A stretch of 33,126 bases of DNA, taken from assembly GCA_905235395.1 (NCBI GenBank), contig CAJOLN010000020.1, positions 1 to 33,126 on the forward strand, read 5' to 3'. The first letter of the stretch is position 1; every line of letters starts with the position of its first letter. Both the position numbers and the translations under genes were made by a program. Source of the DNA: an uncultured Synergistales bacterium (GTDB taxonomy: Bacteria; Synergistota; Synergistia; Synergistales; Aminobacteriaceae). Positions 12,055-20,952 of the stretch are shown here, piece after piece. The notes beneath the pieces are model-generated. The model did no database searches. It worked only from the letters and a program-made list of their open reading frames with translations, and was not told where the DNA came from.

Positions 12055-13760
12055 ATGTTCAAAAAATTTTTTGCGTGCTTCATTTTTCTTCTGGTTATGG
12101 TTTCATCGGCATGGGCGGATATGGGATTGTATACTGCCCATTGGTCAATTGCAGGACTCATAACGGACAATCTGATTATTCCGATGCAAGGTTTCTTGAA
12201 TTTCGTGTAGAAGTCGTTGACCTCGATTTTGATTCCATTGCAACAAGAGAAGACGTTAATCGTTCTGGCACTATCACGATTGCAGGAGGCAATTATTCCT
12301 TCTGGAACGGAAAAGAAATGCAGAGAGTTTCAGGAACTCAGCAGACGTTCAAGTTGAATTTTGAATCGTGGTCGGGAGTAGGAGACAATGTAGCCTACAT
12401 GCTTGTTATGGATAACGATGAGGAATTCAGTTGCGGAGTTGAAGCAGACAACGGCTTGAACGGTATATCTGCAAGCTGGAATTTTCCTGATAAGCCTTCA
12501 TACAACGGGCAGGGTGTAGTTCCGAATTACAAGACGACAAGAGAACAGCTGAATACTTTTGTGCCTTACGTTGAATATATACGTTCAGGTTCAAGTGTAA
12601 CAGGCATAAAATGGCGTGTAGTGAATCCTTCTGACACATCAAAACCGCTTTCACAGGATTTCGGAATGAGCTTCAATGTCAATCATGTATGTGATGCATA
12701 CGGAGATTATCTCTATTCTGGCCCATGGGAGTACATTGAACCTGGCCGGATTCCAGAAGGCACAGTAATGTTTGATGAACCGATTGATGAATCAGAAATA
12801 CATGTAATCAGAGTATATCTCAATTACGAGATTGACGGCAAAGAGACAACAAATCATTGGTTTTTCAAAAAATCATCAGACCCTAAAACTTGGCTTTGGC
12901 AGAACAGCGTCAGCAAAGCCTCATTAGTGAACGGAAAATCAAATTACAAAGATGCAAAATTTGCTCATCTTTACTTCGATATTCTGGCAGATGAAGGGAT
13001 CGTTGTTGAAGCTAAACATTTCACAAATGAAGGCCGCATGACAATACCAGGAGGAGGTTACAGTCTCTGTGATGACGATACAGGAGAAGAACTCGGTATA
13101 ACTGTAGGGACTGGAAGCGACAGAACATATAAGCTGAGGATGTATGACGGTGTAACTCTTGATAATTCGTACCTGGAGTATCAGCCAGTAGACGATAACG
13201 GGATAAACCTTGCTTTCTCTGGTGGAGCAGAAAAAGGGCTTAATGGCAGAACGATAACATGGACATTCCCAAGCGAGCTTAAAATGAATGGGAGTGCAAT
13301 TGTGAATAATTTCAGGTCAACAGCAGAACAGTTAGCTCAGGGAGTTCCTTATGTTGAAGTTGTGAGTTCTGACGGAAAGATTACGGCAATGAATTATAGA
13401 CTAGTTACTTCACAGAATACATCAGCAACCGTACAACCTTCCTATAGGACAGATTTCAGGCTTTATGTTGTACGTTCAACAGGAGGCCCATACAACAGAT
13501 ACAGTTCAAGCTGGCAGAATAATACAACTTCAGGCACATGGACTTTACCAGAACCACAGGACGTGAGCAACATGGGATATGTTATGGTACGCTTACGCAC
13601 ACATGAAGGTACAGCAAATCCGTCAATATATCAGTGGGAATTTCACCCTGCGGACACTCAACCAGATATTCCAGGCAACAGCAGCGGAGGAGGAGGATGC
13701 AGTGCAGGATTCACATTCGCAGGTCTTGCATTAATCGCAATGCTCGTCAGAAAACATTAA
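12055..13760 (+). CDS. Synerg-CTERM surface protein, duplicated domain, frameshifted near 12161
   Basis: The ATG at 12055 (AAGGAG at 12041-12046) encodes a perfect signal peptide ending SSAWA, but this frame stops at about 12208. The long mature frame continues to 13760 in the -1 frame. Reading one base twice at 12162 gives GLINGQSDYSDARF, which aligns with SLVNGKSNYKDAKF in the second half of the protein, so one base has probably been lost there. The mature protein has two related units of about 250 residues (GTITIAGGNYSF and GRMTIPGGGYSL; NGLNGISASWNFP and KGLNGRTITWTFP; EQLNTFVPYVE and EQLAQGVPYVE). The end is a glycine stretch with GGGCSAGF, a hydrophobic helix and LVRKH, a Synerg-CTERM sorting signal for surface anchoring. 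Ligand unknown. Confidence 0.75.
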
Positions 13761-14148: not shown

Positions 14149-14496
14149 CTAAATCTTTATTCCTGCTTTCCTGAATACTTCAAGAACTTCCTTCAATGAT
14201 TTGTATCCAATCTCACGCGCAATCTCATTCCCTTTCGCATCCCTGAAGATCAGCATAGGAACATAACGAACATTGTACTTCTTCGCTACGTCAGGATTAT
14301 CTTCAAGATATATATGACTTGATGATACTGATGAACTATATTTTGATTTTAGCTCATTGAGGACTTTCATCATCTGTTCGCATGCAGGACATGTTTTAGT
14401 TGAGAGCATAGTGATTGAAGGAAGAGCAGCAAAGGCAGAGGAGCATAACACGAACACAAGAACGAACGCGAAAATTATTTTTGCAAACTGTTTCAT
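14149..14496 (-). CDS. Periplasmic thioredoxin-like protein
   Basis: A 115-residue secreted protein with a signal peptide (residues 1-24, ending SSAFA) and a thioredoxin fold. The active site is CPAC (C36, C39) after SITMLSTKT, and the cis-proline loop is RYVPMLIF. A conserved helix, KEVLEVFRKAG, closes the domain. It probably exchanges disulfides or reduces partners in the periplasm. The ATG at 14496-14494 was chosen over an in-frame GTG two codons upstream because the AAGGAAG ribosome site then has better spacing. It is a single gene, convergent with the 44-residue protein gene. The specific partner is unknown. Confidence 0.88.
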   Translation of the reverse strand: MKQFAKIIFAFVLVFVLCSSAFAALPSITMLSTKTCPACEQMMKVLNELKSKYSSSVSSSHIYLEDNPDVAKKYNVRYVPMLIFRDAKGNEIAREIGYKSLKEVLEVFRKAGIKI

Positions 14497-14648
14497 ATTC
14501 ACACACTTCCTTTTTGATTTTTATGATTGCATTGTAAAAATTTTTAGGGTTAAAGACAATACAGAATATTTGCGAAATTAATTGTGAGATATAATTTCAA
14601 ACAGTCATAAAGAAACAAATTCACAGTCAAAGGAGAATACCCGCAAGA

Positions 14649-15821
14649 ATGGAAGAACAAGGAAAGATAATCAGTACATGCGATGTAGATTCAAATCTCG
14701 CACTTCAAATGTGGACAAGAGGAAAGACACCGAGACTCTCAGTTGTGAACAAGAACAAGAATTCACGAAAGCTGATTCATATTTCGTGGGTTGAGAAACA
14801 GGATCGTACACTTGCGATTAACGGCAAAGAAAGAAACGAGATATTCACGTACACAGTGAAGGACTTTGAACCCGCAATCCAGAAGATACTAACGGAATAC
14901 TACGCACGCACGAACTTCAAGCTGAAATTTCTGAAACTCGCACTCGATCTTGAAAAGGCACTTGCACGACCAGAGACCATAATGACAGCTTCAGAGCTTG
15001 CATTGATGTCTGAAGAAAAACGTTCGTCATTGTGGATTGCAGATTGTTCCGTAAAAGACAAAAATAGATTCCTGCCGTTCTTTCAGGTCAGCGAAGAGGA
15101 ATCGGCGGTTATATCTGAGGATAAGCTGAAGATAACAAGCCCCGCAATGAGAAGCACAGACGGTTTGCTTAAAACAGGTGTAACGATTGCACTCAAAGAA
15201 GTGAACCCTGAACGCTGGCACAATACGATTCGTGTTACGGCAGCGGCAATGCTCTTGGGATTTTCATTCTGCGGTGCTGACGGAATAAAGACCTCCGATG
15301 AAATATGGAGTGAAGGTGAGAAGAAACCACCGAAGGAAATCGGACAGACAGCGATGAAAGTTCCCGTGAAGAAAATTTCGCTTCATGATGCAGACCTGCT
15401 CAGACTTGGCCACAAGATGACCGCATACCTGAGACATTATTACATACTCGATGACATAGAGATACTTTACGTTATGGACAGTGAGAAGGAATTACAGGAG
15501 AGCGGATTTGCACGTTCAAGAAGAATCGATTTCAACACAGGCACGTTAGGTGATGTACCCTACAGAGTGACATTCTTTGAGAATCCTGATGAGGGAATGA
15601 CGGCTTTTGGGTGTGATCCGAGAATGCAGACAGCAAGACATACAGGACATATGATAATCATGCTTCCGACAGAGACATACAAGAAGGCTCTGAAGAATGA
15701 TACATTCGGAACAGAAGATGATTTCTTCACGATTACGCGTTTGTTGTGGGCGAAACAATTCAAGGAATGGTACGAGACAATCAAAGTGTACGTGAATAAA
15801 TTTGCGGGGCTGAAAGCATGA
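14649..15821 (+). CDS. Conserved-looking cytosolic protein of unknown function
   Basis: A 390-residue protein without signal peptide or clear membrane segment; a single short hydrophobic run (AAAMLLGFSFCGA) lies in the middle. I recognise no domain. It opens with a beta-rich segment (IISTCDVDSNLALQMW), has a linker around residues 215-240 with SEGEKKPPKE, and a C-terminal alpha/beta part. It begins a run of five genes; its TGA overlaps the ATG of the CsgG-like gene in an ATGA, so translation is coupled. A possible role as the cytosolic member of the envelope cluster is inference from that. AAAGGAG lies 13 bases upstream of the ATG. Confidence 0.7.
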   Translation: MEEQGKIISTCDVDSNLALQMWTRGKTPRLSVVNKNKNSRKLIHISWVEKQDRTLAINGKERNEIFTYTVKDFEPAIQKILTEYYARTNFKLKFLKLALDLEKALARPETIMTASELALMSEEKRSSLWIADCSVKDKNRFLPFFQVSEEESAVISEDKLKITSPAMRSTDGLLKTGVTIALKEVNPERWHNTIRVTAAAMLLGFSFCGADGIKTSDEIWSEGEKKPPKEIGQTAMKVPVKKISLHDADLLRLGHKMTAYLRHYYILDDIEILYVMDSEKELQESGFARSRRIDFNTGTLGDVPYRVTFFENPDEGMTAFGCDPRMQTARHTGHMIIMLPTETYKKALKNDTFGTEDDFFTITRLLWAKQFKEWYETIKVYVNKFAGLKA

Positions 15822-16861
15822 AGAAATTTCTGTGTGCAATTTTGATTCTGCTTCTCTCATTGGGAGTTTCAGAGGCAGGACATACGCGGAGAATTTCAGT
15901 AGTGATATTCCCGACGATAAATTCAACGGAGCTTCAGATATGGGAGAGCAAATATTACCCTTATAATGTTCTTGAACAGAAGATGTCGAATTACCTTGAG
16001 GAAGTCTGCAAGAATTCACCGATGATTGAGGCACGTGTTCTCGATGAGGCAGCAATGAATCGCTGGTTATCAGGTTCACGGCGCGGTGATGATATGGCGT
16101 TACAGCTTGAATTGTATTCTGCGACAATGAAAGATAAGCATGTTATCGGAACGATGGAGTCTGCGAAATTTCTTGTGCGTCTGAGAGTTTTTGACACAAG
16201 GCAGGTGAAAGAGCTTACAGTTCGGACAGTCAAAGGAACAGATAGACGTTTCACATTGGATTCAGCAGAAGATGTATTCTTCTTTGACGCGGCAGTTGCA
16301 GGTTTGGGAATACCATTTGAGAATGGCTTAGACCTTTTCGGCCTCACGAATAAGAAATACACAGGCCAGAAAATGAGCCATTTAACATGGGCACAGTTTC
16401 AGGGTACACCATACTGGCAGGCGTTGAAGAAAGCAATCAATGAGGCATATCGTCAGTCAATGGAACAAGTACGCAATGCAATCCGAAGCAATGATCCGAA
16501 TGCAGAACTAACAGCTCATGATAATTTTTCGGATTCATACCGTACTGTTGGAAGGATACTCGCACCTACAGCAACAGCTACACGCAGACGGCGCGAATAT
16601 ATCATCTCGCTTGGAAGATTCGCTAATGGTAATCGTGACGCTGTACGTGTTGGTGAAGTTCTTGATGTCATTCGTTCGGATACATACATTACAGTTGACC
16701 CTGATAATCCGGTTGCAGTTCTGCCGAAGACGATAGGCAAAGTGAAAGTGATAAAGGTCTACGATGATAACGCAGTAGTGAGAGTAATAAAGGATAATAA
16801 GAAAGAACCTATAACGCTTCAGGACTTGGTAGTGAAGACAACGAAAATAGCAGGGAAGTGA
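15818..16861 (+). CDS. Secreted CsgG/FlgT-like envelope protein
   Basis: A 347-residue protein with a signal peptide (residues 1-20, SEA-G). After it, RRISVVIFPTINST and LEQKMSNYLEEV recall the first strand and helix of CsgG/LpoB-like domains, and FGLTNKKYTG with FQGTPYWQALKKAINEAY recalls their late glycine loop and last helix. The C-terminal part, VGEVLDVIRSD through VGKVKVIKVYDDNAVVRV-like strands, resembles the FlgT/CsgG-associated C-terminal barrel. There is no N-terminal lipobox cysteine, unlike CsgG itself, so it is not clearly a lipoprotein pore. It lies between the cytosolic unknown gene and the TPR gene with 7 bases to the latter. Assignment rests on weak motif similarity. Confidence 0.6.
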   Translation: MKKFLCAILILLLSLGVSEAGHTRRISVVIFPTINSTELQIWESKYYPYNVLEQKMSNYLEEVCKNSPMIEARVLDEAAMNRWLSGSRRGDDMALQLELYSATMKDKHVIGTMESAKFLVRLRVFDTRQVKELTVRTVKGTDRRFTLDSAEDVFFFDAAVAGLGIPFENGLDLFGLTNKKYTGQKMSHLTWAQFQGTPYWQALKKAINEAYRQSMEQVRNAIRSNDPNAELTAHDNFSDSYRTVGRILAPTATATRRRREYIISLGRFANGNRDAVRVGEVLDVIRSDTYITVDPDNPVAVLPKTIGKVKVIKVYDDNAVVRVIKDNKKEPITLQDLVVKTTKIAGK

Positions 16862-16868
16862 TATTAGA

Positions 16869-18218
16869 ATGAAAAAATTTGCAGTGATTATGATTCTTCT
16901 GGCCATGTTCGCAATGCCGTCATATTCTGCTGATGATGACAGTACACCTTACATGCCATACCCGGAACAGCCTCAACCTCAGCCTAAGTCTCAGCCGGAG
17001 AAGAAGCCCGAACCCAAGAAGAGAACTCCCGCGAAGAGACCAGCTCCTAAAAAAAGAACTCCCGCGAAGAAGCCTGCACCCAGAAAGACAACATCAAGAG
17101 CACCGTCTAAACCGAATTCACTTCAGCAGGCAATAACGCTGATCAATCAGGGAAGGTACAAGGAAGCAAAACCATATTTGCTCAATGCAATTAATGCTGA
17201 TAAGAATGACGCAAACGTATGGTACTGGTATGGTGTGTGGCATGAGAAGTTAGGTTGTTTTCATGAGGCGCAGTATTACTACACGAAGGCACTTAGGATT
17301 AACCCTTCATTTGAGCCTTTATCGAGAGTAGCATATTATCCTGAAGATCCCGACAAGATTCCGTTATGGGATCCGAAAAGACCTGCGAGGGTATATCCAG
17401 TTGAGACAGGCGACAAGAATTTTACGAGAGTTCCTCCGTTTGCGCGTGACAGCACGAATTTTCCAGAAGCACCTAATGATCCGGTGATACCAAAAGTACC
17501 CGTGTATACTCCTCCTGAACCAGGAAGCACTCCGCTTGACGGCGATTCGTGGAATCCTTCTGTGTATGTTCCTCCGTCACCGAATAACCCTAATGTCAGA
17601 GAAGGAACAGAACCTGTATACATGCCTCCGCAAGGGCCTGTTGAAGCAGAACGAAGAGAGAGCATAGAGATTGATATTGCACAGAGAGCATCAGATATAA
17701 ACGATACATCATCAAACTATGACCGCGACAGAATAATACGTGCTGATTTGCCGCTGTATACTCCTCCTGCACCAGGCCAGAGGGTAACTACTCCTCCAGC
17801 TGCACCGAAAGTAACAGAACAGCCTAAGAAGTCATCAGCGACATCACAGCCGAAGAAACAGCCAGAAGTGCCGAGAAGGGTTGTACGCCAGCAGAGGAAG
17901 ACGACAGCATCACAGCCTAAAACGCAGACACGTACTCGCGTTCAAAGACAAAGTTCAGCAGCTCCGCGAACTGCATCGCCTGACGTGAGACCAGTTCAGA
18001 CACAGCCGGCAAGAACACAACCGGAAAGACAGGAAAGACCTGCACAGCCTCAAGTACAGCAGGAAATTCCACAGGTACAGATACAGCAGCCAGAACGTGA
18101 ACCTCAGAGGCAGGCACCAAGACAGGAATATTTGCCGCCTGTCGGACAATTCGCACCTGATCCGGGAACTATATCTGAGGCACCGATTCCTCCTGTTGGA
18201 CAAGGGAATCAATACTAA
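16869..18218 (+). CDS. Secreted proline-rich TPR protein
   Basis: A 449-residue exported protein (signal peptide 1-20, PSYSA). Residues 31-82 form a Pro/Lys linker with the repeated KKRTPAK and KRPAP units. Residues 84-150 hold about two TPR units (LINQGRYKEAKPYLLNAI; YTKALRINP). Between 210 and 310 a short motif recurs: Y213TPPEPG, Y233VPPSPN, Y251MPPQGP, Y297TPPAPG. The rest is Pro/Gln-rich and probably disordered, ending in a segment that repeats PPVGQ. Such an architecture suits a periplasm-spanning or wall-binding scaffold. It follows the CsgG-like gene by 7 bases and precedes the two paralogues by 17. No homologue is recognised. Confidence 0.75.
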   Translation: MKKFAVIMILLAMFAMPSYSADDDSTPYMPYPEQPQPQPKSQPEKKPEPKKRTPAKRPAPKKRTPAKKPAPRKTTSRAPSKPNSLQQAITLINQGRYKEAKPYLLNAINADKNDANVWYWYGVWHEKLGCFHEAQYYYTKALRINPSFEPLSRVAYYPEDPDKIPLWDPKRPARVYPVETGDKNFTRVPPFARDSTNFPEAPNDPVIPKVPVYTPPEPGSTPLDGDSWNPSVYVPPSPNNPNVREGTEPVYMPPQGPVEAERRESIEIDIAQRASDINDTSSNYDRDRIIRADLPLYTPPAPGQRVTTPPAAPKVTEQPKKSSATSQPKKQPEVPRRVVRQQRKTTASQPKTQTRTRVQRQSSAAPRTASPDVRPVQTQPARTQPERQERPAQPQVQQEIPQVQIQQPEREPQRQAPRQEYLPPVGQFAPDPGTISEAPIPPVGQGNQY

Positions 18219-18235
18219 CGCGAGGTGATTTAGAC

Positions 18236-18946
18236 ATGAAGAAAATATTTGCTCTGGTCTTCATGGCCATGATGTTTTGTGATTCATCTTTCGGAGCTGA
18301 ATCTATGCTCGTCAATCAGCCTGCATATCACTCAATGAACTTTTACGTTCATAAACCCGTGAATGTTCCAAGAGATTTCTATGTTACTTATGACGGCTAT
18401 TTAGTCTACAAGAATGAAAAAGGCGTATGGCATTACGGCTCTGCGGAATCAAACGGCATAATAAGAACAGGCTATGTTGTCGGTTCAGTGATTCCTTCTG
18501 TGGTGAGACTGAAGCCATATAACGCAAAAATATCTTCAGTTGCTCCGATTCTAAATACACATAATACACGTACTGAATCATACAGCGAATCGAAGTCACC
18601 AGACTGGACAGGAAACACAAACTTCATTGCAATAGGACGCTGGCAGAAGAGCGTAGACAGAATCGGTGTAACTGGCAATCCTTCAATTCCTGTTGCATGG
18701 AAGGGCGAATATCCCGAAGTGATTTATGCGTGGACAGGCGTGCGGTGGAGACAGCTTGATGCGAATGCTAAACATGTTCCGGCAATAAGCACATTAAGAC
18801 GGGAGTTGTATGATTTGACGATTGAGATTAACCGAACGAATGCACTTCACTGGACAAATAATGATTCAAGAGTTCTCGCACAGTATGCATATCAATGGGG
18901 CTATCAATGGGTTGGTCTCGTCATACCTAACGGGAGGTTACGATAA
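18236..18946 (+). CDS. Secreted protein of unknown function, paralogue A
   Basis: A 236-residue exported protein (signal peptide 1-21, SSFGA). It is clearly paralogous to the next gene product. Shared features in order are PAY..M.FYV.KP, DGY.V..N..G.W.YG, VVGSV.PS, a DW..N..F.AIG.W block, SVDRIGV, NP..P.AWKG, and P.V.Y.WTG..W. The end has an LAQ.A..WGY.W motif. The fold looks beta-rich with many Tyr and Trp residues, as in carbohydrate or wall binding modules, but I know of no family name. GAGGTGA at about 18221-18227 is the ribosome site. The TAA overlaps the next ATG by one base, so both should be made at similar levels. Confidence 0.75.
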   Translation: MKKIFALVFMAMMFCDSSFGAESMLVNQPAYHSMNFYVHKPVNVPRDFYVTYDGYLVYKNEKGVWHYGSAESNGIIRTGYVVGSVIPSVVRLKPYNAKISSVAPILNTHNTRTESYSESKSPDWTGNTNFIAIGRWQKSVDRIGVTGNPSIPVAWKGEYPEVIYAWTGVRWRQLDANAKHVPAISTLRRELYDLTIEINRTNALHWTNNDSRVLAQYAYQWGYQWVGLVIPNGRLR

Positions 18947-19695
18947 TGAAGAAAATTTTTTTGTTCGCAATTTTGTTATGTCTCGTATGCAATGAATCAG
19001 AAGCAAAACGTTATGTTACTGAACCTCTTCTTGTTCCTAACCCTGCATATTCAGGAATGACTTTCTATGTTTACAAGCCATACAACATGCCCAAAGGCTG
19101 GTACGTTACATTGGACGGTTATCCAGTGAAGCAGAATCGTGATGGTATGTGGGTATACGGGAATGCAGAAGGGCCTAATCTCGTTGCAACAAATTATGTT
19201 GTAGGATCGGTTGTGCCTTCAATGGCAGGTATCACAAAATGGATTTCAGATGTTCAGATTTCGGAGCTTCGTAAACTTCCAACAGATGAAATGTTTGCTG
19301 TACGTCAGAACGGATTCTCGCGTTCGCAATTAGCACAAGGCAAAACTCATTCAACGTATATTCCTGACTGGACATATAACCATGCGTTCATGGCCATAGG
19401 AAACTGGAAGGGAAGCGTAGACAGAATAGGAGTGCTGAATAACCCAACTGTACCGATTGCATGGAAAGGGAAAAATCCGAAAGTATTATACATATGGACA
19501 GGCAGAACATGGTATCAGATAGATGTTCAGGAATCACGAACACCAGTAAACGCAATCAGACGGGACTACGTAAACATCAGAAGATTTGTTCGAGGCTCAG
19601 GCTTCCAATGGTACGAACAGGACATGCCGATACTTGCACAGCAGGCAAAAGCATGGGGATATTACTGGCTTGGTGAAATTAGAATCACAAAATAG
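18946..19695 (+). CDS. Secreted protein of unknown function, paralogue B
   Basis: A 249-residue exported protein (signal peptide about 1-20, ESEAK) that arose by tandem duplication together with the upstream gene. It has the same ordered motifs (FYVYKPYNMP, GYPVKQN, YVVGSVVPS, AIGNWKGSVDRIGV, AWKGKNP, IWTGRTWYQ). Between VVGSV and the DW block it differs, and it carries an extra stretch with FAVRQNGFSRSQL. The two copies are well diverged at the signal peptide and middle, so the duplication is not recent. No terminator is visible after it; the AAA+ gene follows 39 bases later and may share the transcript. Confidence 0.75.
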   Translation: MKKIFLFAILLCLVCNESEAKRYVTEPLLVPNPAYSGMTFYVYKPYNMPKGWYVTLDGYPVKQNRDGMWVYGNAEGPNLVATNYVVGSVVPSMAGITKWISDVQISELRKLPTDEMFAVRQNGFSRSQLAQGKTHSTYIPDWTYNHAFMAIGNWKGSVDRIGVLNNPTVPIAWKGKNPKVLYIWTGRTWYQIDVQESRTPVNAIRRDYVNIRRFVRGSGFQWYEQDMPILAQQAKAWGYYWLGEIRITK

Positions 19696-19734
19696 AATAA
19701 CGAAAAAAATTTTAATGGAGGATTGATTCATTAC

Positions 19735-20952
19735 ATGTGTGTACTTCTCGCCTATGAAGCTCCGGCAGACAGCCTCATTGTAAGATTGAGCACGGCATTC
19801 AGCAATAATGATGCGCTTGAGATTCATATACTTTTTCACGAATTAATATCTCAGGCATACAAACATAATTACGCGTCCGGTAATATATGGCAGAACTACC
19901 TTACTCACTTCATGCTCACAAATGAAAATTTCTTCTCGCTCTCATGCGAACGAAGAGATTCACCTTCAGGATCTCTAAAGGATGTAGCATTACATGACTT
20001 TGAAGCATTCCTGAGACTGTTTAATCTGAAAAACGAACACATGCATTATGTCAATAACTTCACGGGTAATGAGGCAAACAGTTCACCCATATGTGAAATC
20101 AGCAAGGCAATAGCAGAATCAAAAACAGCAAAGAGAATTTATGACATCGTTACGAATTTCTACAAGCGTCATGGTGCAGGCAATTTAGCGTTCAATAAGG
20201 CATTCAGGTTTGACAGTGATGAAGATAAATTCGTCCCCGTACCTGATGAGAATGTAGGCGATGTAAAACTATCAGACATAATCGGCTATGAAATTCAGAA
20301 GAAAGAACTCACAGCTAACACTGAGGCTTTCATATCAGGAAGACCAGCAAATAACGTTCTGCTTTACGGTGACGGCGGCACAGGAAAATCAACGAGCATT
20401 AAGGCACTTCTGAATGAATATGCACCGAGAGGACTGCGTGCAGTTGAAATTTTCAGGCATCAGTTCAGAGATATATTGCACATAACTGAAATGCTAAGAC
20501 GAAGGAACTATTACTTTGTCCTGTTCATTGATGATTTATCGTTTGAAGAGAACGAGAGCGAGTATAAATATCTTAAGGCAGTCATCGAGGGCGGAATAGA
20601 ATCGCGTCCGGATAACGTGCTTATATATGCGACATCAAACCGCAGGCATATAGTGCGTGAAGTCTGGAAGGATCGTTCAGATATGGAACATGAGGGAGAT
20701 ATTCACAGGTCAGATACGGTTGAGGAAAAATTATCACTGGCTTCACGTTTCGGAGTTGCGATTAATTATTCGAGTCCGTCAAGAAAAACGTATCATGATA
20801 TTGTTCTGACGCTCGCGAAAAATGCAGGGCTTGATGTGAATGACAAAGAACTTCTGAAAGGTTCTGATGCTTGGGAGATAAGACACGGAGGAATGACAGG
20901 AAGAGCAGCAAGACAGTACGTAGATTATCTTCTTGGCCGAATCACTGAATAG
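19735..20952 (+). CDS. DUF815-family AAA+ ATPase
   Basis: A 405-residue cytosolic ATPase. Walker A is GDGGTGKS (212-219, K218) and Walker B is FVLFIDDLSFE (D266, D267). The N-terminal 180 residues are helical; NVLLYGDGG, EIFRHQFRDI, ATSNRRHIV (sensor 1 asparagine), and EKLSLASRFGVAINY with a downstream arginine agree with DUF815, a AAA+ family of unknown role in many anaerobes. The start ATG at 19735 was chosen because GGAGG ends at 19721; an in-frame TTG at 19723 would leave almost no spacing. It lies after the surface cluster and before gatCAB with no clear functional tie to either. Confidence 0.88.
   Translation: MCVLLAYEAPADSLIVRLSTAFSNNDALEIHILFHELISQAYKHNYASGNIWQNYLTHFMLTNENFFSLSCERRDSPSGSLKDVALHDFEAFLRLFNLKNEHMHYVNNFTGNEANSSPICEISKAIAESKTAKRIYDIVTNFYKRHGAGNLAFNKAFRFDSDEDKFVPVPDENVGDVKLSDIIGYEIQKKELTANTEAFISGRPANNVLLYGDGGTGKSTSIKALLNEYAPRGLRAVEIFRHQFRDILHITEMLRRRNYYFVLFIDDLSFEENESEYKYLKAVIEGGIESRPDNVLIYATSNRRHIVREVWKDRSDMEHEGDIHRSDTVEEKLSLASRFGVAINYSSPSRKTYHDIVLTLAKNAGLDVNDKELLKGSDAWEIRHGGMTGRAARQYVDYLLGRITE

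Follow-up and report, generated by a model that had tools for sequence, protein, structure and literature searches.

A candidate flagellar accessory module of Synergistota comprising an FlgT-like protein, a TPR protein and a new family of exported proteins

The torque of the flagellar motor is influenced by periplasmic scaffolds, and detailed knowledge of these structures is limited to a few phyla. The polar flagellum of Vibrio possesses an H ring that contains FlgT (PMC7693769), together with FlgO and FlgP (structures 3w1e and 8z5n), and in Vibrio lacking FlgT the flagella are mostly periplasmic (PMC7693769, PMC7990780). Periplasmic TPR proteins are likewise known motor scaffolds, as exemplified by PflA, PflB and FlcA of Campylobacterota and spirochaetes (PMC7990780, PMC13023049). 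Strict flagellar co-occurrence was among the arguments by which FcpMNO were assigned to the Campylobacter motor (PMC11870540), and part of our argument is of the same kind. No mention of FlgT together with Synergistetes or Synergistota was found in the literature searched.

Here, we describe a row of genes in a 33,126-nucleotide stretch of DNA from an uncultured Synergistales bacterium, the whole of which is referred to as the window. An earlier note, made from the sequence, had singled out five of these genes, here called A to E, as a possible structure of the cell envelope. We compare their products, distribution and promoters with the systems named above.

An envelope gene row and its conserved core

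The row is operon-like and its junctions are tight, with overlaps of four bases between A and B and of one base between D and E, and gaps of 7 bases between B and C and 17 bases between C and D; gene F begins 27 bases past E on the same + strand (Table 1). Open reading frame coordinates agree with the earlier description of a five-gene row on one strand with overlaps and gaps of up to 17 bases, and the four signal peptides it listed were recognized again by inspection, being of Sec type without a lipobox on B, C, D and E and absent from A. Its individual assignments were also sound: A, having neither a signal peptide nor a Pfam match, is a cytosolic protein of no known family; the exported CsgG/FlgT-like protein is B, in which the FlgT_C domain scores 29.2 bits against a Pfam cut-off of 27; the Pro-rich TPR protein is C, in which two TPRs precede the Pro-rich tail; and the paralogous secreted proteins are D and E, which are 43% identical and, like A, match no Pfam family. 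Since orthologues of A, B, D and E occur in tens of genomes and those of C in 40 loci, A to E are real genes.

Table 1. Positions of the gene row and its promoter element in the window
Feature	Position	Strand	Description
TATAAT box	14590..14595	+	Probable housekeeping-type promoter of the cluster; conserved in the gene A upstream alignment of the window's genus
Gene A	14649..15821	+	390 aa; cytosolic; no known family; peripheral member
Gene B	15818..16861	+	347 aa; exported; predicted CsgG/FlgT fold; FlgT_C domain; core
Gene C	16869..18218	+	449 aa; exported; two TPRs; long Pro-rich tail; core
Gene D	18236..18946	+	236 aa; exported; new D/E family; core
Gene E	18946..19695	+	249 aa; exported; D/E family; two small beta-rich domains; core
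Gene F	19723..20952	+	DUF815 AAA ATPase; judged outside the module (negative control)

Synteny was assessed at 40 loci, all in other genomes of the window's family, in which genes were labelled by iterated HMMs. In 38 of the 40, B, C and D/E are direct neighbours that share a strand; of the two exceptions, one lies at a contig end and the other is a C–E pair with B elsewhere. The core is thus B–C–D/E, with one or two copies of D/E, and the genes that flank it vary among these loci. The order B–C–E recurs in two further families (f4 and f5), and in a third (f8) B is followed by a single protein that joins the TPR part of C to the C-terminal half of E, a fusion that is strong evidence of C and D/E acting together. 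E is separated from B–C in family f6. Conserved linkage, which the earlier note had named as one check on its reading, therefore holds for the core, and its picture of an envelope-located gene set is borne out for exported B, C and D/E across several Synergistota families. The unit does not consist of the five genes of the note: A lies upstream of B at 23 loci, all of the window's genus, and elsewhere has no linkage to the cluster. Gene F is downstream of the cluster in most of that genus (19 loci). Relatives within the genus are mostly MAGs from the guts of goat, sheep and deer, some named Fretibacterium, and the closest named genome is a reindeer MAG, also designated an uncultured Synergistales bacterium.

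Among the loci examined, no flagellar genes were identified as neighbours of the cluster; a flagellin gene beside it in genome G058 was left out, as the link spans a run of N. Outside the window's genus the neighbours of B include SIR2 in several families and nothing flagellar, and around A, in other genera, lie DUF72, nitroreductase, 2-thiouracil desulfurase and NYN genes, none of them flagellar. The SIR2-family gene immediately precedes B in families f4, f5 and f6 and in genus g3, which are four separate groups (loci L096, L097, L098, L215 and L217). In an f8 genome, the fused C–E gene is followed by one whose product weakly matches PDZ (L105:8319-9188, +).

Two other products of the window were recorded. 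A 561-aa protein (12075-13760, +) has two similar halves and a C-terminal tail of Gly/Cys, hydrophobic and basic segments, with a weak match, under the cut-off, to the Synerg-CTERM sorting domain (TIGR04564, E 0.046). Upstream of gene A, on the opposite strand (14149-14502, -), lies a gene for a small, divergent, exported thioredoxin-like protein with a CPAC motif.

Co-distribution with flagella and promoter motifs

We searched 188 Synergistota genomes for FlgI, flagellin, A, B and D/E, which were found in 126, 133, 114, 125 and 107 genomes, respectively. When genomes with FlgI or flagellin are counted as flagellated, 139 fall in this class and 49 are non-flagellated. B is present in 125 of the 139 and in none of the 49 (p = 8e-33, a value that ignores kinship), and each of the 125 genomes that carry B has FlgI or flagellin. 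Flagellin is found in all 11 B-bearing genomes that lack FlgI, so these gaps in FlgI are probably gaps in assembly. Three genomes of the window's own family that are without flagellin and FlgI (G004, G006 and G013) are likewise without A, B and D/E. In 14 flagellated genomes B was not detectable, and hence B is not essential to a flagellum. D/E occurs in 106 flagellated genomes and one non-flagellated genome (G137, a marginal match at E 4.8e-4). A occurs in 113 flagellated genomes and one non-flagellated genome (G151), which is 63% complete and comes from a flagellated genus; gene A thus follows flagella, and belongs to the cluster in the window's genus alone. Gene F, examined as a possible additional component, was ruled out by its distribution, DUF815 being present in 68 flagellated and 24 non-flagellated genomes (odds ratio 1.0), and is judged to lie outside the module.

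Kinship was corrected for with an rpoB tree that covers 79 genomes and contains 8-9 flagellar changes and 8 independent pairs; the placement of one row, G076, whose branch is very long, is unsure. B changes in the same direction as flagella in about 5 of the 8 pairs and in the opposite direction in none. The corresponding figures are about 4.4 concordant and no contrary pairs for A, about 2.8 and none for D/E, and about 0.2 concordant pairs for DUF815. Pairs without a difference trace to flagellated sister lineages in which B was not detectable (G092, G121 and G182). With so few events the sign test for B is borderline (median p 0.0625); the direction of co-loss is consistent and could not settle the matter by itself.

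Late flagellar genes are driven by sigma-28. In the window's family, CCGATA is found within 200 bp upstream of 11 of 30 flagellin genes, mostly after TTAAAG, in the form TTAAAG...CCGATAA. The flagellins of this family are numerous, with up to 20 Flagellin_N matches per genome (G010), and many are large, their open frames often being 780-1000 aa. Outside the window's genus, the pattern T[AC]A[ACG]-N16-18-CCGATA is present within 160 bp upstream of B at 9 of 31 loci, representing seven genera, and at 3 of 570 other genes, all three a single orthologous gene (p = 1.5e-10). This pattern was refined with the B sites already seen, so the plain count matters too: CCGATA alone lies upstream of B at 12 of 31 loci, as compared to 22 of 570 other genes (p = 9.5e-9), and on the reverse strand at none of the 31. 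In the window's genus, the region upstream of A holds degenerate matches to a sigma-28 site, and a TATAAT box, usually in the form TGCGnTATAAT, is conserved 5' of A. Given this box and the lack of a recognizable sigma-28 site, the promoter seems to have changed in this genus, where the module appears to have moved behind A and under a housekeeping-type promoter. When the window was scanned with promoter and terminator consensus patterns, matches were no more frequent than expected by chance.

The promoter result is a line of evidence separate from co-distribution. We conclude that B–C–D/E is very probably associated with the flagellum. The earlier note had regarded the genes as a free-standing system without a tie to anything named; the flagellated state of every B-bearing genome, the sigma-28-like promoters and the predicted FlgT fold of B speak against that view.

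Predicted proteins compared with known systems

An AlphaFold model of B (pLDDT 77.8) was compared with PDB structures. The top matches are the Vibrio LPHT ring (8z5n, E 1.2e-11) and FlgT (3w1e, 2.9e-11), and weaker matches are to CsgG (2e-6), CT253, HpaA and PelC. The match to FlgT is full-length at E about 1e-11, yet the TM-score is 0.31-0.32, perhaps owing to uncertain domain orientation. FlgT_C was found in 35 of 35 aligned B orthologues, in none of which did the FlgT_N or FlgT_M models match at E <= 0.01; sequence profiles of B, A and D/E gave nothing significant against PDB sequences. The signal peptide of B ends in ...LLLSLGVSEAGHT, and inspection found no lipobox. B resembles Vibrio FlgT in its FlgT_C domain, export and co-occurrence with flagella, and has FlgT structures as its best fold matches, but differs from it in having no FlgT_N/FlgT_M sequence match and a low global TM-score, and in its genetic setting, in which no flgO or flgP was identified near B and the companions of B are a TPR protein and the D/E family. 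With CsgG, the curli pore, B shares the fold of its N-terminal domain by structure comparison; unlike CsgG, it has no lipobox, carries the additional FlgT_C domain and gives a weaker match than to FlgT. The window's genome has both FlgH and FlgI (G000:C64), so B would be additional to the L/P rings rather than a replacement for them. A second FlgT_C protein is encoded in this genome (G000:C52:242-478, -; E 6.8e-6), and several relatives also have second copies.

C can be likened to PflA, PflB and FlcA only as an exported TPR protein; it shares with them flagellar co-occurrence and a position beside other periplasmic proteins. Unlike those proteins, C has two detected TPRs, a long Pro-rich tail (in the window's genus) and different partners.

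The D/E model comprises two small domains that are rich in beta structure and carry conserved Trp, Gly and Tyr residues, the C-terminal domain being of high confidence. Its fold has no match in the PDB at E <= 0.001, PHROGs returned nothing for it, and the alignments of D/E and A, when scanned against Pfam, gave isolated matches at the level of chance. D/E is accordingly a new family without known relatives by fold, Pfam, PHROGs or PDB sequence. In a scan of 84,980 genomes, the 76 loci kept were from Synergistota only, a search that used one peptide motif and leaves room for relatives elsewhere. A third, distant D/E paralogue lies in the window's genome (L034:5716-6573, -; G000:C58), where it adjoins an M48 peptidase and overlaps the ORF of a 302-aa protein without a Pfam match; relatives of this paralogue at 25-31% identity occur in many related MAGs (L179-L198).

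A proposed accessory ring or scaffold and its alternatives

The reading that we favor is that B–C–D/E is probably a flagellar accessory module of Synergistota with a ring or scaffold role, most likely situated in the periplasm near the L/P rings. B, as an FlgT-like periplasmic protein, would nucleate or itself make up a further ring encircling the canonical L/P rings. C may serve as an adaptor that docks the D/E proteins via its TPRs, and the Trp-rich beta domains of D/E, which would make up the bulk of the structure, could build a disk or scaffold between the B ring, the peptidoglycan and the outer membrane. Such a structure might stabilize the motor or its passage through the outer membrane. 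We infer the location at the motor, the formation of a ring, the contacts among the proteins and the effect on motility from what was computed: conservation, synteny, the C–D/E fusion, flagellar co-distribution, sigma-28-like promoters in seven other genera and the predicted FlgT fold of B.

The same distribution and promoter data would also fit genes that belong to a motility regulon without encoding motor parts, for example a co-regulated adhesin-like or sheath-like structure of the envelope or surface of swimming cells. The lack of a fold match for D/E and the position of the cluster away from identified flagellar genes are compatible with such a structure, but the top fold matches of B are motor-ring proteins and periplasmic TPR proteins recur as motor scaffolds (PMC7990780), and we regard it as unlikely. 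Considerably less probable is a curli-like secretion system, in which D and E would be surface subunits exported, with the help of C, through a CsgG-type pore formed by B in the outer membrane. CsgG, CT253, HpaA and PelC do appear among the fold matches of B, and D and E are paralogous secreted proteins; against this, B scores better with FlgT than with CsgG and combines FlgT_C with the absence of a lipobox, and the presence of the genes follows flagella. Furthermore, the cluster differs from a curli locus in having no gene for a short-repeat subunit: the D/E alignment comprises two globular domains without short curli-type repeats, and the fusion of the C-terminal one to the TPR protein, seen in f8, is not a feature of an exported subunit.

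A functional link to flagella would be lacking altogether if lineages of reduced genome size had lost the genes jointly with flagella and the motif in the promoters were coincidental. The borderline outcome of the kinship-corrected test leaves some room for this, but the adjacent DUF815 gene has no such pattern, non-flagellated genomes without B include large ones (G136 and G137, 3.5 Mb), and the promoters provide their separate evidence, so that we consider joint loss very improbable.

Returning to the accessory module, we advance tentatively, as a possibility somewhat short of an even chance, that it constitutes a phylum-specific motor ring or outer-membrane disk of Synergistota, built from an FlgT-like protein, a TPR adaptor and the new-fold D/E proteins, which would have evolved separately from the scaffolds of Vibrio and Campylobacter. 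A named set of genes makes the Synergistota motor directly testable. An FlgT-like protein would thereby be placed far outside the Proteobacteria, and D/E, a family without known relatives, would gain its first likely function.
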